Virus record (IMG/VR): IMGVR_UViG_3300036826_000065
Span: 1-54,786 of that record
Direction: 5' to 3' (one strand)
DNA from: a virus
DNA: 54,786 nt
Made by a program: the position numbers and the translations under genes. The notes below the pieces were generated by a model that did no database searches, was not told the DNA's origin, and saw only the letters and a program-made list of their open reading frames with translations. Below are positions 7,294 to 47,660 of the stretch, piece after piece (within the stretch, counting starts at the first letter, position 1; each line of letters opens with the position of its first letter).

Positions 7294-10200
7294 TTAATCT
7301 CCCGCCGCCGTGATGGTAACCGACTCCAGCGGTCCCAGCGTTATTGTCGTCGCGGCGTCCCATAGCGGATCGCCCGCTTGCGGCGTGATGATCACGTTGT
7401 GCGTGCCCTTGACGTTGGCGATGTACAGCGCACGCCCCTGGTAATCCGCCAGCGCGAGCAGATGCACCGGCACATCGTTGGTGGAGCAGTCCACGCGGAT
7501 CGTCTGGTCGGTGACGCGGGCGAGCCAGAACGTGCTGCCAGAAACGTCTGGGTCGTTGGCAGATGGACCGATCTCGCGCACGCCCGGAGGTTCCGCGAAG
7601 ATGAAGATCTCGCGCATGCACGCCGACTCCTCATCGGTGATCCGCCCTTGATCATCGACCAGGAAGCCGCCGACCAGGGCGACCATGTTCTGCAAGTTCT
7701 CGATGCGCAGCCGCAATTCAAACGACACGCCAGGAGCCATGACGCTGGTGTCGGTCGTCTCAGTGAAGTAGACCCAATCGCGAGCTTCCACGATGCACAA
7801 CGACGTGTTGTCCGGCGGCGTGTCCAGCGGCGGGTTGACGGTGATGCGGATGTTTGTGTTCGCCGTGATGGCGCGAAACTGTCCGGCGCCCTTGCCGCGA
7901 ATGATGCGGAATATGTTGCCGACCTCCACGCCAGGATCGAGGCCAGCCCAGCCTGGGCGGAAGCCGGACTGTGCATAGCCTACAGAGTTATTCCACAGGG
8001 AATCCTCAACCCAGGTTCCGCCCGCGTCCCAGGAAGTCGGCTGCGACCGGGCGATCAGAACATCCCCAGGCTGTAGGGGATCACCGGCCATCGGGTCCGG
8101 CGTGACCGTGAACGATCCGGCGCTACTGTTGAAACCGATCACCTTGAAATTCCACAGGGGTGCAGAACCATCGCTGGCGTCCGCGACCGCTGTCAGGATG
8201 CGATTGTTCCAGTTATCGGTTGAGCCGATGAAGTCGTTCGACTGGATCGTGTTCGCCGCAACGCCGGTCACGACCACGCCAGCCACGCCACTGTGCCAGA
8301 CATGCTTCGCCTGGATACGCACCTTGCGAGCGGACTGTTCGGGAAGCTCGTGCGTCATGGGATGGACGGGACCGTTGAACGTGGTGCTCGTTGGTAGCGG
8401 CGCGACCGTGCTCTGCTGCCAGCCGATCAACCGCCGGTCGGTCCCCGCGTACAAATCCCAGGTGTCCCAGGAGCCGCTGGTCGCTGGCGTCATGTCGAGA
8501 TGCACGCCCTGGCCGGTGACGCCCGCAGGAATCCAGAGTGCAATCGGAAGAGACGGAATCGTGTAGCCCGCTGGCCCATGCTGGCCTACCGCGACGTAGA
8601 TCGTCATCGGACCATTCAGCGTGCCGCCTGGGACCAGCGTTGCGCCTAAGATCCTGGGCTGCACCTGCGCGGGAAATGTGTTGATGACCATCTCGCCGCT
8701 GACGAAAATGCTGGGCGCCCAGACGCCCTCGCGAGTAATGTTGTAGTCCTGCCACAAATCAAACGAACGCTCCATCGCATCGGTGTATACCGGATCGCCG
8801 GCAACCGGCCCAATACGATTCGGCATCCACGCGAGCCCATTGATGGAGGGCAGATGCTCCGGTATCACCGGGTCGGTCGGCACGTCGGCTGGCTTGGGAC
8901 CGGCGGTGAAGTCGTACATCGAATCGGTCACGCCGGAGCAGACGATATCGATGGAGAAGTCCGGGTTCAGCGTCCAGCGCTGCACGCGCCCTTTCTGGTA
9001 TGCGCTCGCGCCCGCAGGTAGCCGCGAATGCTGGACGCCGATAATATCGCCGCACTTGGTCTGCATCGCGAGCAGAGTCGTGCGGAACTGCATGTTGCGC
9101 GTGTTCTGCGGTTCGGTCGGTCCCCAGCCGCCCAGTTCCTCGCGCAGCCTTGCGACGAGGATGCGAGCGGCTTGCGACTTGGTGGACACGCCGACAAAGC
9201 TCATCTGGTTGCGCGTATACATCGGCGCCGCGCCGTTACCGGCGAATATCGCCTGATCAATGTCGTAAACGGAGATGGTGTTCAGGGCCCAGCCGGAGCC
9301 GGTCTGTGTCTGATCCGCCGCAAACTCCTCATCGCCAAATTGACCATCGAGCCAATTGAACTGCGGCGCCATCGGCGTTGCCTGAAGCGACTGGTACAGG
9401 ATGGTGTCTCGCGTGAAGCCCTGGCCCGTGAGCACGGCGGCGTTCTCGCGGATTCCGATCCAGAGCTTGCCATTGACGAAGGTGTAATACCCGCAGCAGC
9501 AGTTCAGAATTTCCTGAATCCAGTCCTTCAGCGGCTTCTGTTCTTTCAGCACGCCGCGAAACTTGAACTGCGATTCGTTCTGGGTCGGCACGATCATGCT
9601 GGGCACGATCTCCTCGCAGATCGCCGCCGCCGCGAGCGCCGCGTCCAGGTCGAAGTAATTCTCCATCTCGTTGGCCGGGATGGTGCCGATGATATCGTTG
9701 GTCACTTTCTCGCCCAGCCCGCGCAGGAAGACGTTGATCGCGATCCAGACCGGGTTACTGAGTCTCTGCTGCCAGTTGCGCGTCTTGTCGGCGTTCCACG
9801 ACCAGCCGTACATGCCGCCGACCACGGTGACGGTCATGTGCCGGTCCACAACCTGCTTCAGTTGCATGCCCGCGTCATCGGTGCGCCGCACTTCCGCGAA
9901 CGCCACGCCAGCGGCATAAGTGCTCTGCGCCGGAACCGCGCCCCAGGGCGAACTGCTGAGTTGAAAATATTCCGTTGTTAGATTTGCCGGATCGTTGCCG
10001 TTGATCCCGCGAAAGCCGCCGTTGTGAACGGGATCGTGCGGCGGCTGGTCGTCCAGCTTGTGCTTGAGCAGGTTGGTCGCGTAGCCCGCAATCGGACCCT
10101 CGCTGACGATGCCCAGGGCGCTGTAGAACTCGCTTTCTTCGCGACCGGCGGCGACGTCGCACACGACCGGCATCTCGTGGTCGGACCAGATCTCCTGAAT

Positions 10201-27947: not shown

Positions 27948-30900
27948 TCACTCCGTGAAATCCGTTCTTGCGCTGAAGCTCTGGAACTGCGGCATCGGCG
28001 TCGTGCGGAGCTTCGGCGCGGCCACCGGCTTCCTGGCGCTCGCGGGTTCGTTCTTGCGTTCGGTCGAGGTCAGCCGGTCTTGGAGATCCTGCCAGCGGGC
28101 CTCGTTCCAGCTTTCAAACCGCATGCTCGCCGCCGCCGCACGTGCGTAGATCCGGCAATTCCCGGCGACGAAGACTTGCCCATTGCGTCGGCAGATCAGC
28201 GTCCCGTTGGGGACCGTCGCGCAATATACGGTTCCTTGATGCTGGACCGTGCGACCGATAAATCCACGCTGTCCATTGGCGCCGCCATCTAGATACGCCC
28301 GCTTTACATGGGAATTCTCATGTACATGGAATTGATCGCGGGTATTGTCTCCGGTGCGTCCCCTGATTTCGTAAGGCCGCGATTCCCTGCGATGAGATCT
28401 GGGCGCACTCCCCAGCTTGAGAAAAAGTTCCTGGTAGTCGTCGGCTAACTTCTCGCAGACGGTCGCGATCACTCTACAGTCGCCGGATTGAAGCCAGCCA
28501 TCGCCCAGGACTGCCGTCTGAAGAAACGCCTCGATGACGTCCCGTGACGACTGCTTGATCCACGACGGGATGCGGCGGCTTTCCTGCAATCGCCCCCAGG
28601 GCGCCACCTCATCGAATAACTGCTTGGAGGTCGCGGTGAACTTATGGACTCCGTCGTTCCAACTAAATCGCCAGGGAAGCCTGTCCAGTAATCGGGCGAT
28701 GGCTTCAACGTTCTCCTTCTTGGTTTGGCAAATGCTGACCAGCCGCCGCACCGACCCCTCGTGCTCATTGATCGCCGCCGAACCCTCTGTAATCCACCAG
28801 CCATAGAACCGCGCCAGATCCATCGCATCAACATGTCGCTCCGGCTCGATCTCCATGCCGGAGTCACTCTTATGGCTCGCAGGAATCGTAATCTGTGGTG
28901 CGCCACGCTCCAGCCATTGGCCGGTTAACTTGATCTGATGCCGCTGGGTTAATTCGCGGGCGAGCGTGACCTGGGGACCGACTACACCATTGCGCGAGGG
29001 AAGATAAGTGACCATGCGGTGAGCAGGCGTCGTGAGGATATCGATGCGCCTCCCCTGGAGATGCACCATGTCGCCGCTGTACTGGCGAATGATCAGGTCG
29101 GATGGCCGCTGGAATTCGATGGCGTCCGTCTCCAATTCCACGGTCGCGACCTTCTGGCCGGAAAGATCGATGAATCGCTTCCATCCCTCGTCGGTCAGCA
29201 CCTCTGTCGAGGCGTCGAAGCAATCGAGAGCCTCGTTCCGCTCGCGGTGCTTTTCCCACTGGGTCTTCTTCATGCCGCGCACCGTCGATGTAACCAACCG
29301 CTCCGCTGTTAGCTGTTCAAAGTACTCGCGTGAGTAATTGGGGAAGTGGCAGAAGCCGACCGGCCAGGATTCGCCCGCGCTCAGGTCCGGCGTGCGGCTC
29401 CGCAGCCAGCGGTAGAGTTCCTCCTTCGCGATGTCCACGTTGACCGGCCAGAGCCGGATGCCGTACTTGAGCTTGCTGCCATGGGGGCCGACCTCCACCA
29501 TCGAGGCCGACCCCACCAAGGACGCGGGCCTGTTACTCCCCTTAACCCCCATCACGCGCATCGGGCTCATGCGCCGCACGTAGTCGTAAACCGCCATCGT
29601 GTTGAAGCCGGTGTCGATGGCGAGCTTGGCGATCCGGGTCGGCTGACCGTACTCGGTCGGAATGTCCTCGTCCAAGAGCTTGGTGATGTTCTCCCAGACC
29701 TGCGGCTGCGACGTGTCGCCGTCGAACACGCGATAGTCCACAGACCAGCTATGCCGGTCGCGACCCCAGGCGACGATCTCGCATTCCAGCCGCCGCGCCT
29801 GGACGTCCACGCCAGCGGTGACCAGGATGCCGCCCTCCGGCACCACGCCCAGCATGTAATCCTCGCGCCGCTCATAGAGCCGGTCAGCGTCCGGCGCCTC
29901 CGCGACGTCCAGCCAGGGCAAGCCCAGGATGGTATTAACGAAGATCTGCTGCTTCTGCGGGTCTTCCCCGGCCTCTTCGCGTTTGCGGGCGACGTCCTCC
30001 CAGGAGAGCCAGCCGACCGGCGAGTAGAGCGACGACAGGTGGTAGCCGTGCGTGCGCGGGTTCTCCGCGCCGTCCGGCCTCCACTCGCCACGCGGAAGCA
30101 TGTACGCCTTGTGGTGGTTCGCCAGTCCCTCGCCGCAGCCCGCGCAGTGATAGCGGGCCGTCTCCGGCTTGCCGTGCTGCCAGCGGAGTTGGGCGAACAC
30201 CAGGACCTGCTTCTCGCCGCAGTGCGGACAGGGCACCCAGTATTGCCGCTTGTCGCTGTCCTCGTAGAAGCGCTCGATGCGCGAGTGTCCGCTGACGGTC
30301 GGCGTCGAAACGATGAAGATCTTCCGGCGTGCGAAGTTCGTCGTGCGGGCGATGGCGAGTCCGCATGGTTCGCCCTCGCCTTCGACGTCGCCTTTATAGC
30401 CATCGACCTCATCGAGGAAGAGATACCGCGCCGACATACTGCGGAGTCCCTTGGCTGAGTTAGCCCCGGTCATTACCAGTAACCCGCCAGGGAATTCCTT
30501 ACTAAGTAGCGTGTTGCTGCTATCTCTAGATCTGGAGTCTTTCACCCGCGTGCGCAGCACGACGGAGTCTTCTATGAGCGGGCCGATGCGTTGCTTACTG
30601 TTGCGCCGCGCCATCTCGATGGTCGGTTGCACCACGAGCATGGGACCGGGCGCCATGTGGATGACGAAGCCGACCCAGTTATTCCCAGCTTCCGTCCCCC
30701 CGATTTGGGCCCCCTTCTGGAACACGACCGTCTCGACGCGGGAAGCCGGGGAGAGATCGTCCATGATGGCGCGGAGAAACGGCGCACGGGAAGTGCGCCA
30801 CGGTCCCGGCTCCGGCGACGAACGCGCCGATAGCTGACGGAACTGATCCGCCCATTGACTGATCGTGAACGCGGGGTCAGGTCTGGCTCCGTCGCGGGCT

Positions 30901-30959
30901 GCGCGATCATACACCGCAGCCGCGTCCGCGATCCTCTCGCCAATGAGCGCGACGTCCAC
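27948..30959 (-). CDS. Terminase large subunit (GpA family) interrupted by an intein
   Basis: The 1003-aa precursor splices in principle to 648 aa, the normal GpA length. ATPase: a GpA-type variant Walker A (QKGAQIGGTE, 81-90), Walker B LFLDEVD (180-186), IVSTP (216-220). Two CxxC pairs (244-247, 272-275) form a zinc site. Nuclease acids: Asp385 (AGVDV), Asp449 (LAIDT) and Asp579 (NEALD). The intein (580-934) lies directly after Asp579, and the extein resumes with CRIYARAAA. The terminase packages DNA and cuts ends; GpA-type enzymes usually make cohesive (cos) ends. Start GTG directly follows the previous stop (TAAGTG). Splicing is needed to reunite the nuclease active site region, so the intein must be active unless the gene is defective. 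Confidence 0.93.
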   Translation of the reverse strand: MDVALIGERIADAAAVYDRAARDGARPDPAFTISQWADQFRQLSARSSPEPGPWRTSRAPFLRAIMDDLSPASRVETVVFQKGAQIGGTEAGNNWVGFVIHMAPGPMLVVQPTIEMARRNSKQRIGPLIEDSVVLRTRVKDSRSRDSSNTLLSKEFPGGLLVMTGANSAKGLRSMSARYLFLDEVDGYKGDVEGEGEPCGLAIARTTNFARRKIFIVSTPTVSGHSRIERFYEDSDKRQYWVPCPHCGEKQVLVFAQLRWQHGKPETARYHCAGCGEGLANHHKAYMLPRGEWRPDGAENPRTHGYHLSSLYSPVGWLSWEDVARKREEAGEDPQKQQIFVNTILGLPWLDVAEAPDADRLYERREDYMLGVVPEGGILVTAGVDVQARRLECEIVAWGRDRHSWSVDYRVFDGDTSQPQVWENITKLLDEDIPTEYGQPTRIAKLAIDTGFNTMAVYDYVRRMSPMRVMGVKGSNRPASLVGSASMVEVGPHGSKLKYGIRLWPVNVDIAKEELYRWLRSRTPDLSAGESWPVGFCHFPNYSREYFEQLTAERLVTSTVRGMKKTQWEKHRERNEALDCFDASTEVLTDEGWKRFIDLSGQKVATVELETDAIEFQRPSDLIIRQYSGDMVHLQGRRIDILTTPAHRMVTYLPSRNGVVGPQVTLARELTQRHQIKLTGQWLERGAPQITIPASHKSDSGMEIEPERHVDAMDLARFYGWWITEGSAAINEHEGSVRRLVSICQTKKENVEAIARLLDRLPWRFSWNDGVHKFTATSKQLFDEVAPWGRLQESRRIPSWIKQSSRDVIEAFLQTAVLGDGWLQSGDCRVIATVCEKLADDYQELFLKLGSAPRSHRRESRPYEIRGRTGDNTRDQFHVHENSHVKRAYLDGGANGQRGFIGRTVQHQGTVYCATVPNGTLICRRNGQVFVAGNCRIYARAAAASMRFESWNEARWQDLQDRLTSTERKNEPASARKPVAAPKLRTTPMPQFQSFSARTDFTE
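28158..29222 (-). mobile_element. Intein with LAGLIDADG homing endonuclease in terminase
   Basis: 355 residues, from Cys580 to Asn934 of the terminase frame, with Cys935 as +1 residue. Splicing motifs: block A CFDASTEVLTDEGW; block B with T644-x-x-H647 in TTPAHRM; block F/G ending VFVAGN before Cys. The usual penultimate His is Gly here. The centre holds two LAGLIDADG-like motifs, FYGWWITEG (718-726, acidic residue Glu725) and FLQTAVLGDG (812-821, Asp820), so the endonuclease may be active. It is inserted at a very conserved point in the terminase nuclease domain, a typical homing target. Confidence 0.9.
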
Positions 30960-33780: not shown

Positions 33781-34056
33781 TTACGGCACGAGTGAAACCA
33801 GTGTGCAATGCTCACAAAACAGTGCGCCGTTACCGACCGCAGCAAACGGCACGCCCTGGGCGCATCCTGGGCACACGGCACGCAAGTCTAGATCGCACGT
33901 TGCGCCGTACCAGGGCGCGTCAGCGGTCGGCGGTATTGCGCCGCTATGCCAATCCTCTACATCGGCAAGCGTCATACCTAGGCACGCACGCACGTCAGCG
34001 TGCCGCGCAAGTCGCAGAGCAAGCGACAGCAAGGTTTCGATAACCTGGGCACGCAT
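33781..34056 (-). CDS. Small HTH/zinc-knuckle protein, last gene of the ribozyme operon
   Basis: A 91-aa protein with an N-terminal helical HTH-like segment (LRLARHADVRACLGMTLADVEDW) and a C-terminal CPGC...CEHC pair typical of a zinc ribbon. It starts one base after the stop of the previous gene (TAGCATG), with GGGAG 10 nt upstream. A DNA-binding role is likely but unproved. No terminator with U-tract is seen after it. Confidence 0.65.
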   Translation of the reverse strand: MRAQVIETLLSLALRLARHADVRACLGMTLADVEDWHSGAIPPTADAPWYGATCDLDLRAVCPGCAQGVPFAAVGNGALFCEHCTLVSLVP

Positions 34057-34297: not shown

Positions 34298-34348
34298 CTC
34301 CCTACGCCTCACGGCGTTTCGTCCCATCCCAGGGACTCATCAGGGGAG
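34298..34348 (-). ncRNA. Type I hammerhead ribozyme (copy 4)
   Basis: Minus strand, 5' to 3': stem I strand CUCCC, core CUGAUGA, stem II GUCCC/GGGAC with loop UGGGAU, core GAAA, stem III CGCC/GGCG with GUGA tetraloop, cleavage triplet GUA, then stem I strand GGGAG. All invariant core positions are present. Predicted cleavage is between 34303 and 34302, 14 nt before the start codon of the next gene. It directly abuts the TAA of the upstream gene. The sequence is identical to copies 2 and 3. Confidence 0.92.
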
Positions 34349-35065
34349 TTAGGATGCGAGCACAATAAAGGGAGAGTCGGCGTTAATCGCGAGTCCCTTC
34401 GCCCTTAAGCCGACAACGACTCCCTTCGGGTCCAGAAATCGCAAGTCGTGCAAGTCGCCATCAATCACACGGTAACCATGCCACGTCTCAGGCAAAGGGA
34501 AACCTTTGCGCACATGAAACACGACAGCGACATTGACGCCTAGCGCGAGTACTCGCAGGGACTCAGTTAGATTCTCGCCACTGTAGCTGTATGTCAGATG
34601 GTAGTTAGGTAGCTGGCGCAAATCCGCTTTAGGTAGTTTGGTGTAATCGTAAAAGGTTACCTGGGGAAACGACCGCGCCATTTCTTTGGCTAACCACGGT
34701 AGATCACTCGTGCCGTTGATACGGACAGCTAAACGCATGCCGCGTTTGGCGGCGCGGCGCACGTACATGCCAATGTCATACCTGAGGCATGCCAGAAACA
34801 ATGCACGATTGCCAGCCAGCAACATAGTCTTGGCGACTCGTGCCGCTTGCACGTTGCGAAACCGCCCCATGCCAGCCATATTGAGACATAGCGCTATGCA
34901 CCATGCCGTTGCGCCTAGGCAGACATTGAGGACTCCTGAAGACATAGCTGGCGCCAGATACATAATCGCTGTCAGCCAGCCTAGGGACTCGCCCTTGACA
35001 GTCTTGTAATTGTCATCCTGCAATAGCCGTTTGTAACCGTTTGGTTTCCGTTTATTCGTCGTCAT
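34349..35065 (-). CDS. GP88-family phage protein
   Basis: A 238-aa member of the phage 'gene product 88' family, recognised by KGESLGWLTAIMYLAPAMSSG, the cysteine block NVCLGATAWCIALCLNMAG, RINGTSDLPW, FYDYTKLP, and C-terminal VIDGDLHDLRFLDPKGVVVGLRAKG. The family is widespread in phages and its biochemical role is not established; conserved cysteines hint at a metal site. Translation starts at ATG 35065 after ribozyme copy 3, and its stop codon TAA touches copy 4. Length is normal for the family. Confidence 0.88.
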   Translation of the reverse strand: MTTNKRKPNGYKRLLQDDNYKTVKGESLGWLTAIMYLAPAMSSGVLNVCLGATAWCIALCLNMAGMGRFRNVQAARVAKTMLLAGNRALFLACLRYDIGMYVRRAAKRGMRLAVRINGTSDLPWLAKEMARSFPQVTFYDYTKLPKADLRQLPNYHLTYSYSGENLTESLRVLALGVNVAVVFHVRKGFPLPETWHGYRVIDGDLHDLRFLDPKGVVVGLRAKGLAINADSPFIVLAS

Positions 35066-35077
35066 AGTAGTTTGGGT

Positions 35078-35128
35078 CTCCCTACGCCTCACGGCGTTTC
35101 GTCCCATCCCAGGGACTCATCAGGGGAG
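35078..35128 (-). ncRNA. Type I hammerhead ribozyme (copy 3)
   Basis: Same 51-nt sequence and fold as at 34298-34348. Predicted cleavage between 35083 and 35082, leaving a 17-nt leader (GGGAGACCCAAACUACU) before ATG 35065 of the GP88 gene. It abuts the TAA of the upstream gene (35131-35129). Confidence 0.92.
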
Positions 35129-35347
35129 TTAGCGAACCCGGAACACCGGACGGCGCCCACAGTCCTCCCCAGGGCGCACGGCAACGTTGATTCTACCGAC
35201 CTTGATTTCGGAACCGCCAGCTAACCACTGATACTTGCGCGGCGAAACCTTGACCCATGGACCATGCGCAAAGTTGTAGCAAGTACACTCCAGTACGGAG
35301 TGATCGAATTCAAACGTGGCGCCAATTTCCAGGTCGCGAAATTTCAT
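35129..35347 (-). CDS. Hypothetical protein, probable SH3-like/beta-barrel fold
   Basis: A 72-aa protein (MKFRDLEIGATFEFDHSVLE...WVKVSPRKYQWL) whose pattern, 'F.dL..G..F.f......wvK.s...y', is common among small phage and bacterial proteins of unknown function. It overlaps the upstream stop as TAATG, so it is translationally coupled and, unlike its neighbours, has no ribozyme before it. Its own TAA abuts ribozyme copy 3. Confidence 0.75.
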   Translation of the reverse strand: MKFRDLEIGATFEFDHSVLECTCYNFAHGPWVKVSPRKYQWLAGGSEIKVGRINVAVRPGEDCGRRPVFRVR

Positions 35348-35571
35348 TAGCGTAAACCTCCATTGAGCAGCACACGATAAGTGTGATTCCCAGCAAAGTC
35401 GCTGTATCGGTATTCCACGCGATTACGATTCCGATAATCGCGTGTTGCGTCGTTATGGCCGAAGTAGTCACGAGTCCAATCTGTCGCCAGCCAGAGAAAC
35501 TCGCAATGAACGGTGACGTCAAATGACGTTTCCGTCTGGTTTTCAAAACATACGATGTAAGGTCTTTCCAT
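35347..35571 (-). CDS. Hypothetical protein downstream of ribozyme copy 2
   Basis: A 74-aa polar protein rich in Tyr, Arg and Asn (WTRDYFGHNDATRDYRNRNR). Not recognised. ATG 35571 follows ribozyme copy 2 at 10 nt from its GGGAG; leader identical in length and almost in sequence to that of the gene at 34058-34288. Confidence 0.68.
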   Translation of the reverse strand: MERPYIVCFENQTETSFDVTVHCEFLWLATDWTRDYFGHNDATRDYRNRNRVEYRYSDFAGNHTYRVLLNGGLR

Positions 35572-35580
35572 AGTGGGTAT

Positions 35581-35631
35581 CTCCCTACGCCTCACGGCGT
35601 TTCGTCCCATCCCAGGGACTCATCAGGGGAG
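35581..35631 (-). ncRNA. Type I hammerhead ribozyme (copy 2)
   Basis: Identical to copies 3 and 4 over all 51 nt. Predicted cleavage between 35586 and 35585. 5' end abuts the TAA of the gene at 35632-35871; the product begins 14 nt before ATG 35571. Confidence 0.92.
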
Positions 35632-35871
35632 TTAGTGTCTCCAAAACTTGCCATTCGGACTGGCAGCGCCGTCAGGATTGATATAACCGTGGCATTCGTC
35701 AGCGGGTCTATACCACGTCAGCAATAGGGACTCTGACGGATTAGCATAGTGCTTAAGGTATCGGCGCATTTGCAGCATCGCGCCCTGATCAGTGTGCGCC
35801 GTCAGGCGAACATAATTTCGCTCGCCTAGGCTGTCGATAATCTCAATCGCGTATGTCGTGTAAGGTTTCAT
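35632..35871 (-). CDS. Hypothetical protein between ribozymes 1 and 2
   Basis: A 79-aa protein (YAIEIIDSLGERNYVRLTAHTDQGAMLQMRRYLKHYA...) with a probable strand-helix-strand start. Not recognised. ATG 35871 follows ribozyme copy 1; GGGAG of its stem I lies 9-10 nt upstream. TAA stop touches ribozyme copy 2. Confidence 0.7.
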   Translation of the reverse strand: MKPYTTYAIEIIDSLGERNYVRLTAHTDQGAMLQMRRYLKHYANPSESLLLTWYRPADECHGYINPDGAASPNGKFWRH

Positions 35872-35880
35872 CGTTTGTGT

Positions 35881-35936
35881 CTCCCTACGGCGCCGTGGGC
35901 GCCGTTTCGTCCCATCCCAGGGACTCATCAGGGGAG
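35881..35936 (-). ncRNA. Type I hammerhead ribozyme (copy 1, longer stem III)
   Basis: Same core and stems I and II as the other copies, but stem III is CGGCGCC/GGCGCCG with loop CAC instead of CGCC/GGCG with loop GUGA. The two arms changed together, keeping full pairing, and the GUA triplet is retained. Predicted cleavage between 35886 and 35885. It abuts the TAA of the upstream membrane protein gene. Confidence 0.92.
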
Positions 35937-36161
35937 TTAGGACAAGTCAGCCAGTAGCGCAACGACGGCGCCGATTACCGCGCCGCCTAGTCCGGTGATT
36001 GCCGCCCATGCGCCGGCTGACCAGACAGTGGGCGCCGCAACATGGAGTGTTGCCGCGACAGCTAGCGCGAGAAATCCGACCGCTGAAAGACCCAGGGCGC
36101 CGCACATGAAGTAGTCAACTACCGGGATGCCGTTTGTGTAACTGCGTTTGTTGTTTGTCAT
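35937..36161 (-). CDS. Two-TM membrane protein, candidate holin
   Basis: A 74-aa protein with two hydrophobic segments (about residues 18-42 and 51-71) and a basic N-terminus (MTNNKRSYTN), giving a class II holin-like topology. No endolysin is next to it, so a holin role is only suggested by size and topology. First gene of the ribozyme operon; upstream DNA (36179-36339) is strongly structured. Its TAA touches ribozyme copy 1. Confidence 0.68.
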   Translation of the reverse strand: MTNNKRSYTNGIPVVDYFMCGALGLSAVGFLALAVAATLHVAAPTVWSAGAWAAITGLGGAVIGAVVALLADLS

Positions 36162-45890: not shown

Positions 45891-47660
45891 TCACGCCGCG
45901 ATCCGTACCCTGGTCGTTACCTGGAGTTGCTTATTGTAAATCGCACGTTCAGGCTGCTTACAATTAGCAACATTCAGGCGAACCAGGATGGTGATTTCCG
46001 CCCAGCCGTGTGCGTAGCGTATGCCGCCAGCCGGAATCCAGTCCAGCAGGATGGCTTGTTGCTCCACCGGGTCGGTCGTTTGGAAAGCCTTGCGGGCTAG
46101 CCGCTGAATTGTGGCGAGGTCGTATTGCTCCGGCTCAACCTCTCCGGCTCCGGCTTCGATGCGCCGGTCCAAGAGGGCGAGTTCGGTTTTATATTTCGCC
46201 ACCAGCCCAGCATACTCCGCTTTGTCCTCGTCGGAGTCGGCGTCGATCTCCTTTCTCATCGCTTCCCGTCGCTTCTGATCCTTCCGCTTCCGCTCTTCGC
46301 GGAGGCGAGCCAGTTCGGCCTCGTCGTCCGGCGTGACGACCTCACCGAACTTCTCCGCGACCAGCGACTCCAACTGATCGCAGACGGCGGTCTTCAGCCC
46401 ATTCCAAACGCCGGGATGCAGAATGTCGGCGCGAACGGATTTGGAATCGCACTCGTAATGTCCCTCCGTCTTGTGCCGGTGCGTGCAGCGGTAGTACAGC
46501 GTGCGCGTGCCGTCGTCCTTCACCGCACTTCCATGCGCGGGCGCCATCGCTTTTTTGCACTCCTCACCGATGCCCTCGCCGGAGATCACGGTGGCGCCGC
46601 AGGAAACCAGCGTGCTGAGTATCGCCACCTGACCGCCGTCTTCGGCTCGCCGTGCGGGCTTGCCAGTGGACGCGGCGCCATTGCGCTTCAGGCCTTCGAT
46701 GATGGCCGCTTGCTCATCCGGCGTCCAGATGCCGCCACCGGGCATCTCGATCTTGCCAGCCCACTCCTCGCGGGGCTTGAACACCTTCACGGTGCGAACC
46801 TTGTGCCGCTCCGCTTCCGGGTTACGAACTTTTTTGGGCTCGATGAACTTGCGCTTGCCGTACCACCATTCGCCGCTGGAATAGGTCCAGTCGTTCGCGA
46901 TTGCGGCCACGGTAATCGGATTCCAGCCCAGCTTGCCGCCGGGAGTCTTGATGCCACGCGAGTCCAGTTCCCGGCAGATGCCACGCTGGGTGCCTTCGCG
47001 CCCCCCGGCCAGCGCGAGTTCACCGATTAGCTGCACGACTTCCAGTTCGTTCACGCGCCGTTCGTAGAAGTTCTGCGGTCTGCCGGTCGGAACTTCCTCG
47101 TTGGCGTTCAGAGCCCGCGCCGCGATCTCCCTGGCGGTCACCATGTGCCAGCCGTAGGGCGCACCGAAGTGCGCGAGGCCCTTCGCCAGCTTCGCCATCA
47201 CGCCATAGCGGGACTTCTCCGCAATGTCGTCCCGCTGATACTGGGCGACGGTCAGAAACATGTTCATCTGCATGCGGAACCAGCCGCTGTCCTGATACCA
47301 GCCCAGGTCGCCCAGCAGCACGTCGGCCTTCAGTTCGCGGAACTCGCGGATGGTTGCGAGCCCGCCTTCGACGTCGCGGGAGAAGCGGTCGATCCAGGGG
47401 AATGCGACGGCGTTCGCCACGCCAGCGCGGATCTGTTTTTTGGCGAGCCGGATCGAAGGCCGGTTGAAGTCAGTGCCGCTGTAGCCCTTGTCTTCGATCA
47501 TCAGTTCGGCGGGAATGTCGCAATCGTACTTGTCGGCCAGGAGGGCGAACTTGTTGCCCTGTCCGTCGAAGGAGTAGTTGCCGACCTGCTTCAGCAAGCT
47601 GACGCGCTTAATCCCGATTGCGATCCGGCGTGCCGGTCTTGGGAATGCTCTTGCGGCCAT
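45891..47660 (-). CDS. int: Large serine recombinase (integrase)
   Basis: A 589-aa serine integrase. The catalytic domain has IGIKRVSLLKQ with Ser21 as nucleophile, GYSGTDFNRPS (59-69), FPWIDRFSRDVEGG (87-100) with the conserved arginines, and MNMFLTVAQYQRDDIAEKSRYG. A recombinase domain follows (GAPYGWHM; RGICRELDSRGIKTPGG), then a zinc-ribbon (LVSCGATV...YYRCTHR...YECDSKSV) and a coiled coil (ELARLREERKRKDQKRREAMRKE). Such enzymes insert phage DNA at attP x attB without host factors and need a directionality factor to excise. It indicates a temperate lifestyle. ATG 47660 has GGGAGG 9 nt upstream. It closes the early operon before the terminator. Confidence 0.95.
   Translation of the reverse strand: MAARAFPRPARRIAIGIKRVSLLKQVGNYSFDGQGNKFALLADKYDCDIPAELMIEDKGYSGTDFNRPSIRLAKKQIRAGVANAVAFPWIDRFSRDVEGGLATIREFRELKADVLLGDLGWYQDSGWFRMQMNMFLTVAQYQRDDIAEKSRYGVMAKLAKGLAHFGAPYGWHMVTAREIAARALNANEEVPTGRPQNFYERRVNELEVVQLIGELALAGGREGTQRGICRELDSRGIKTPGGKLGWNPITVAAIANDWTYSSGEWWYGKRKFIEPKKVRNPEAERHKVRTVKVFKPREEWAGKIEMPGGGIWTPDEQAAIIEGLKRNGAASTGKPARRAEDGGQVAILSTLVSCGATVISGEGIGEECKKAMAPAHGSAVKDDGTRTLYYRCTHRHKTEGHYECDSKSVRADILHPGVWNGLKTAVCDQLESLVAEKFGEVVTPDDEAELARLREERKRKDQKRREAMRKEIDADSDEDKAEYAGLVAKYKTELALLDRRIEAGAGEVEPEQYDLATIQRLARKAFQTTDPVEQQAILLDWIPAGGIRYAHGWAEITILVRLNVANCKQPERAIYNKQLQVTTRVRIAA

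Follow-up and report, generated by a model that had tools for sequence, protein, structure and literature searches.

Type I hammerhead ribozymes as intercistronic spacers of a tailed phage, with a putative Shine-Dalgarno sequence in stem I

Clusters of hammerhead ribozymes were described in prophages by Perreault et al. (2011, PMC3088659), who state in the passages on the subject that 'on many occasions' several hammerheads flank a single gene or a short block of genes. According to the same passages, cleavage was observed for three tandem sets in vitro and for one in E. coli, and long phage transcripts are proposed to be cut in this way to gene-length mRNAs. A later review repeated the clustered prophage hammerheads and called the role of prokaryotic and phage hammerheads an open question (2017, PMC6155905). 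Hammerhead switches engineered for bacteria, for their part, keep a Shine-Dalgarno sequence hidden until cleavage exposes it (Wieland and Hartig 2008, as cited in passages of the review PMC12192606), and a sensor that releases the Shine-Dalgarno sequence is described in the same review. The present analysis concerns four type I hammerhead ribozymes on the minus strand of an IMG/VR virus record (IMGVR_UViG_3300036826_000065; hereafter the window, 54,786 bases in all). They lie between phage genes, and their stem I appears to contain the Shine-Dalgarno sequence of the next gene.

Like the clusters of Perreault et al. (2011), these hammerheads lie in tandem along a phage transcript, around blocks of one or a few genes. 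The preliminary description of this DNA regarded an array of four as undescribed, a view overtaken by the clusters published in 2011 (PMC3088659, in the passages cited), by their repetition in 2017 (PMC6155905) and by further IMG/VR loci with 4–10 strict hammerheads each. At least six such loci occur in a sample not selected for stem I, an IMG/VR scan for the core and a GTCC stem II that gave at least 120 loci (6/120 among the matches listed). Two single-strand arrays, each on one phage contig, exceed that of the window, with 10 hammerheads in L115 (2276–9477) and 8 in L065 (1341–6845). Both are regular one-strand arrays with the same core and stem architecture as in the window, but their stem I sequence differs and the Shine-Dalgarno sequence, where seen, lies downstream of stem I. 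Moreover, many phage type I hammerheads of this kind with a 5-bp stem I (e.g. L076, L007) show complementarity between loop II and the 3' tail (43% vs 15% in shuffled sequences), which is likely to form a pseudoknot and which the elements with GGAG in stem I lack.

The array itself is therefore not new; the new part is the ribosome-binding site inside stem I. The passages of Perreault et al. (2011, PMC3088659) on the clusters mention neither a Shine-Dalgarno sequence in stem I (the word 'Shine' is absent from the text of the paper) nor a stop codon adjoining the element, nor an exchange of cassettes between closely related genomes. No report of a natural hammerhead with a Shine-Dalgarno sequence in stem I was found in the literature, in a search outside which most subscription journals lie. 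The engineered switches (aptazymes) are alike in that the ribozyme masks a ribosome-binding site until activation frees it, which for the present elements is a prediction. They differ in joining a Schistosoma hammerhead to a ligand-binding module, whereas the elements of the window are natural, intergenic and repeated, with no visible ligand domain.

Sequence and fold of the four elements

Each element, on the minus strand and upstream of the terminase genes, reads CTCCC-CTGATGA-GTCCC-TGGGAT-GGGAC-GAAA-stem III-TA, followed across the predicted cut by GGGAG; in every copy, stem I begins immediately after the TAA of the preceding gene (Table 1). In copy 4, stem I is CTCCC/GGGAG, stem II GTCCC/GGGAC and loop II TGGGAT; stem I, core and stem II are the same in all four. 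The core is complete in every copy (C3 U4 G5 A6 N7 G8 A9, G12 A13 A14 A15.1, U16.1 and H17, read as CTGATGA ... GAAA ... TA) and is surrounded by paired stems of 5, 5 and 5 pairs (copy 4: 8). Stem III is CGCC-GTGA-GGCG in copies 1–3 and CGGCGCC-CAC-GGCGCCG, again fully paired, in copy 4. The topology is that of type I, with stem I as the open end and loops closing stems II and III, and the minimum-free-energy fold of each isolated element is the hammerhead. Copies 1, 2 and 3 are identical over 51 nt, for which the chance expectation is 0, and the identity of copies 1 and 3 extends over 67 nt, from the TAA through the ATG. By sequence and predicted fold, the four elements are confirmed as type I hammerhead ribozymes. 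Re-examination bore out the preliminary description in its coordinates, strand, core, stems and cleavage triplet, in the 51-nt identity of three copies, in the placing of the cleavage position at 34303/34302 and its equivalents, and in the start after the upstream TAA with a gap of 9–12 nt to the next ATG, found in all four copies. Core, fold and spacing likewise support its reading of complete type I hammerheads serving as regular intercistronic parts.

Detection did not depend on the window's own sequences. A covariance model trained on 34 type I hammerheads from other phages, none of them from the window or its close relative and none with GGAG in stem I, finds exactly these four copies in the window (42.6, 42.6, 42.6 and 32.9 bits), at E-values from 6.7e-11 (copy 3, 42.6 bits) to 7.6e-8 (copy 4, 32.9 bits). 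The stems of the training set covary, with 133 two-sided changes against 32 in shuffles; this set was picked by a script that required pairing, and its covariation is supportive rather than independent. The exchange of stem III between copies and genomes with pairing kept, described below for a close relative, is evidence independent of the choice of training set. A relaxed scan that covered types I, II and III and tolerated one core mismatch finds only these four elements in 54.8 kb, and the same scan of 20 Markov-randomised windows yielded none. In a check for intrinsic terminators, no terminator-like site coincided with a ribozyme.

The putative ribosome-binding site in stem I and its recurrence

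The predicted cut lies immediately 5' of GGGAG, which forms the 3' strand of stem I and stands at a Shine-Dalgarno distance from the downstream start codon. Before cleavage, this sequence is paired within the ribozyme in all four copies, as expected of a binding site unmasked by cleavage, and no second Shine-Dalgarno sequence was found between stem I and the ATG. The spacing of 9–12 nt had been given in the preliminary description, which overlooked its implication: judging from its sequence and position, the 3' strand of stem I is the Shine-Dalgarno sequence. GGAG-type sites also serve other genes of the window, and GGGAG itself occurs at 34056, 47660 and 7292. In folding predictions, cutting raises the unpaired probability of the binding site in 18 of 20 elements.

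The arrangement recurs elsewhere. IMG/VR was scanned for hammerheads with CTCC just 5' of the core, in three registers, and the matches were pooled with the GTCC-stem-II sample. GGAG occurs in stem I of 34 distinct type I elements (the GGAG class, which includes the window's own copies), of which 26 have an open reading frame (ORF) start 4–12 nt past GGAG, whereas a start 4–12 nt past the end of stem I is found in only 6 of 165 other type I elements (Fisher p 5e-20, for rows that are partly non-independent, several coming from one genome or metagenome). An upstream stop codon within 2 nt of stem I is present in 26/34 elements of the GGAG class and in 34/165 of the others, with the same dependence among rows. 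Judged by eye, the GGAG-in-stem-I arrangement is spread over about 12–13 lineages, and a terminase recognisably common to the window was seen in only 2 of the 16 records checked.

Searches in other collections gave little. A scan of 84,980 bacterial genomes, as potential hosts, for the TAACTCCN core had no match, a search of GenBank phages returned only partial matches of 18–21 nt, several of them to type II hammerheads, and a plasmid search returned only 19-nt matches. Type II hammerheads were observed in or beside intercistronic spacers of cultured Streptomyces phages, whose records carry no hammerhead feature: at 1541 and 2224 in Streptomyces phage R4 (L368), at 842 in L367 and at 1542 in L370, with four within 1.5 kb in Spernnie (L369; 1479, 1541, 2672 and 2874).

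Genes of the operon and a close relative

The window is a tailed phage with a portal, a head protease, a gpA-type terminase and a large serine-type integrase. The genes around the ribozymes are mostly small (Table 1). The preliminary description had the operon read gene-ribozyme-gene, which holds for the regular spacers but not as one gene per ribozyme, since the unit between copies 3 and 2 consists of two overlapping genes (35571–35347 and 35347–35129). Its assignment of one gene to the GP88 family agrees with the Pfam match. A link of the hammerheads to GP88 genes as such was considered and rejected, as none of 79 other GP88-bearing viral loci (L168–L246) has a strict type I or III hammerhead in the fetched flanks.

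Table 1. Ribozymes, putative Shine-Dalgarno sequences and operon genes in the window
Feature	Position	Strand	Remarks
Hammerhead copy 4, type I	35881–35936	minus	cut predicted 35886/35885; ATG 9 nt past stem I
Hammerhead copy 3, type I, 51 nt	35581–35631	minus	cut predicted 35586/35585; ATG 9 nt past stem I
Hammerhead copy 2, type I	35078–35128	minus	cut predicted 35083/35082; ATG 12 nt past stem I
Hammerhead copy 1, type I	34298–34348	minus	cut predicted 34303/34302; ATG 9 nt past stem I
GGGAG, stem I 3' strand of copy 4 and putative Shine-Dalgarno	35881–35885	minus	gene start 35871, spacing 9 nt
GGGAG, stem I 3' strand of copy 3 and putative Shine-Dalgarno	35581–35585	minus	gene start 35571, spacing 9 nt
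GGGAG, stem I 3' strand of copy 2 and putative Shine-Dalgarno	35078–35082	minus	GP88 gene start 35065, spacing 12 nt
GGGAG, stem I 3' strand of copy 1 and putative Shine-Dalgarno	34298–34302	minus	gene start 34288, spacing 9 nt
Gene MTNNKRS, 74 aa, hydrophobic	35937–36161	minus	TAA adjoins copy 4; no family above cut-off
Gene MKPYTTY, 79 aa	35632–35871	minus	between copies 4 and 3; no family; not in L155
Gene MERPYIV, 74 aa	35347–35571	minus	first of two genes between copies 3 and 2
Gene MKFRDLE, 72 aa	35129–35347	minus	second of two genes between copies 3 and 2; ordinary Shine-Dalgarno GGAGG
GP88-family gene, 238 aa	34349–35065	minus	between copies 2 and 1; PF17338 E 1.3e-41; phrog_1617 E 4.5e-69
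Gene MTINRHT, 76 aa	34058–34288	minus	downstream of copy 1

Within the ribozymes, ATGs at 34327, 35107, 35610 and 35928 (minus strand) share the reading frame of the gene that follows, and automatic gene calling may therefore place gene starts within the ribozymes. The possibility that the ribozyme is an N-terminal coding extension (in-frame ATGs, for example MGRNAVRRREIPTM...) was rejected: read directly, the frame is broken in the fourth copy of the relative L155.

This relative, L155/L167, is the closest found, with 94% protein identity in the terminase and 95% in GP88. It is collinear with the window at about 70–80% nucleotide identity and has the same gene order. L155 contains four elements of the same core pattern and no others in its 53.5 kb, all of which keep the CTCCC/GGGAG stem I and the adjoining TAA. 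Across the eight copies of the two genomes, stems I and II are invariant, whereas loop II (TGGGAT, TGCAAT, TGGGAC) and stem III vary with pairing kept. Gene content differs at the array. In place of the window's MKPYTTY, L155 has a gene of the PAPS-reductase family together with MTKKTRR, and it carries one additional gene with its ribozyme between GP88 and MTIN. Homology between window and L155 is lost 11 nt ahead of copy 4 and regained 7 nt beyond copy 3, and these borders, with different genes between them, indicate that genes were exchanged here as ribozyme-bounded cassettes. Other differences in gene content between the two have no ribozyme at their borders. Copies within one genome resemble each other, and the best match of copy 4 is a non-orthologous L155 copy (95% over 79 nt). 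The PAPS-reductase-family gene, which this part of the window does not contain, lies at 8740–9597 of L155 (PF01507, E 1.2e-18), directly before a ribozyme.

Two further genes of the phage were noted. The integrase (45894–47660, minus strand) is of the large serine type and matches integrases and DNA invertases in PHROG, which makes a temperate lifestyle of the phage probable. The terminase large subunit (27948–30959, minus strand, 1003 aa) contains a LAGLIDADG-type insertion resembling an intein (Pfam LAGLIDADG_3, residues 808–861), which is probably absent from L155, where the terminase frame is 650 aa.

Proposed role and competing explanations

We consider it probable that the hammerheads act as intercistronic spacers that cut the transcript into gene-length mRNAs, the Shine-Dalgarno sequence of stem I being freed by the cut or, alternatively, by translation of the upstream gene. 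That the elements cleave themselves is inferred from what is known of the core's biochemistry. The ribozyme would fold as the transcript emerges and cut 3' to H17 (A), just ahead of GGGAG, which would split the polycistronic RNA into gene-length pieces, with 300, 503 and 780 nt between successive cuts. Hammerhead chemistry leaves a 2',3'-cyclic phosphate and a 5'-OH. The upstream mRNA would thus have a structured 3' end with a 2',3'-cyclic phosphate, behind two hairpins and a short way past the stop codon, and the downstream mRNA would begin with a 5'-OH on GGGAG, the next gene's putative Shine-Dalgarno sequence. A 5'-OH end is a poor substrate for 5' entry by RNase E or RNase J, which makes mRNA stabilisation plausible.

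The binding site, paired in stem I before the cut, could be freed afterwards as the 5-bp stem comes apart. In the 2008 synthetic design of Wieland and Hartig, too, stem I is said to do the masking. Alternatively, translation of the upstream gene may open stem I. Given that the stop codon adjoins stem I, a terminating ribosome should pull it open; from its usual footprint, a ribosome that has reached the TAA should extend over the first bases of the core as well as the 5' strand of stem I, so that the site would be opened and cleavage delayed. Unmasking, mRNA stabilisation and the coupling role are what we infer from the ribozyme sequence and fold, the Shine-Dalgarno sequence in stem I, the stop and start spacing and the recurrence.

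Several observations weigh against this reading. In a search of Rfam at gathering score, no family was matched by any copy. The best match, of copy 2 to RF00008, reaches 41.4 bits (E 4.9e-7) against a gathering score of 48.5, and the relaxed-score RF00008 matches, with E-values from 4.9e-7 to 5e-3, rest on core and stem II; RF00008 and its clan thus resemble the elements in these parts, but at sub-gathering score and with the permutation wrong (type III). For copy 2, this match suggested a type III reading, which was rejected, as it has mismatched stem III pairs and pairs more weakly than the type I fold. The gathering score is a library threshold rather than a defining biochemical feature. 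This miss led to the building of the independent model, and it is attributed to Rfam's models since the independent phage type I model finds all four copies; the refuting outcome named in the preliminary description, a covariance score below threshold for every copy, thus occurred literally at Rfam's thresholds, but not with that model. Furthermore, the predicted gain in accessibility is nil in copies 1 (0.50 to 0.51) and 3 (0.50 to 0.49), probably because GGG can re-pair with CCC just downstream. Natural hammerheads gain speed from a contact of loop II with stem I or its flank, and no such tertiary contact between loop II and stem I is evident here, so cleavage could be slow at cellular magnesium. 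A UGGG/CCCA pairing of loop II with the tail is possible in copies 1–3 only, not in copy 4 or in the four L155 copies, and the GGAG class shows no excess of loop II-tail pairing (9% vs 7% shuffled); the corresponding pseudoknot was not adopted as the tertiary contact. Finally, the matches listed from the unselected sample comprise 128 type I elements, and only two of these, both in L070, have a Shine-Dalgarno sequence in stem I. With the site absent from stem I in most phage hammerheads, unmasking cannot be the general purpose of hammerheads in phages; a Shine-Dalgarno sequence in stem I is, on these counts, a recurrent minority design.

A simpler explanation is that the ribozymes only process and stabilise mRNAs, that cleavage is fast and co-transcriptional, and that the Shine-Dalgarno sequence sits in stem I for compactness, its masking being without regulatory effect. 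A spacer of stop, ribozyme and start, about 60 nt long, is shortest if one strand serves both roles, and the spacers here are indeed minimal, with a stop offset of 0 and the start 9–12 nt past the stem. Processing to gene-length mRNAs is also the role proposed in the cited passages of Perreault et al. (2011, PMC3088659). Other phage hammerheads, where a site is recognised, mostly have the Shine-Dalgarno sequence downstream of stem I (37 of 99 with a start within 45 nt; median offset 21 nt), from which it follows that masking is not needed for hammerhead function. Compactness alone, however, need not give an exact Shine-Dalgarno sequence in stem I at functional spacing in some 12–13 lineages, and it leaves unexplained why stem I is invariant in eight copies in which stem III changes freely, although shared Shine-Dalgarno use alone could account for this. 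We regard this explanation as rather unlikely, while taking it to be the most serious of the rivals.

That the elements are kept mainly as recombination joints bounding exchangeable gene cassettes, with ribozyme activity secondary, appears improbable. The homology borders at copies 4 and 3, the extra gene and ribozyme of L155 between GP88 and MTIN, the similarity of copies within a genome and the resemblance of copy 4 to a non-orthologous L155 copy would all be expected of such joints. Plain joints, however, would not need the full core, pairing and Shine-Dalgarno sequence that the eight copies keep; gene-content differences also occur at ribozyme-free places, and a joint role can be a by-product. 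It is still far less probable that the elements are inactive relics or chance hairpins that do not cleave in the cell. The Rfam miss and the lack of a demonstrated tertiary contact would fit such relics, but the core is perfect in four window copies and four copies of the relative, stem III has been replaced with pairing kept, and randomised sequence contains no such element.

Beyond the cleavage and unmasking proposed for this operon, we tentatively suggest, at a confidence short of even, that the elements belong to a natural class of intercistronic modules. In such modules, the hammerhead and the next gene's binding site would form one structure, translation would be gated by self-cleavage or by the upstream ribosome, and the modules would serve as exchangeable cassette borders. 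The predicted cut, at most one base away from the Shine-Dalgarno core GGAG on its 5' side, would physically tie the ribozyme to translation start and offers a direct and cheap reporter test of the purpose of cleavage. If the gating is true, the design that synthetic biology arrived at in 2008 is already in use among phages, and the modules would amount to insulated parts for operons, ready for use. If the module class is true, it would represent the natural counterpart of engineered hammerhead switches and give a concrete function to some of the unexplained phage hammerheads.
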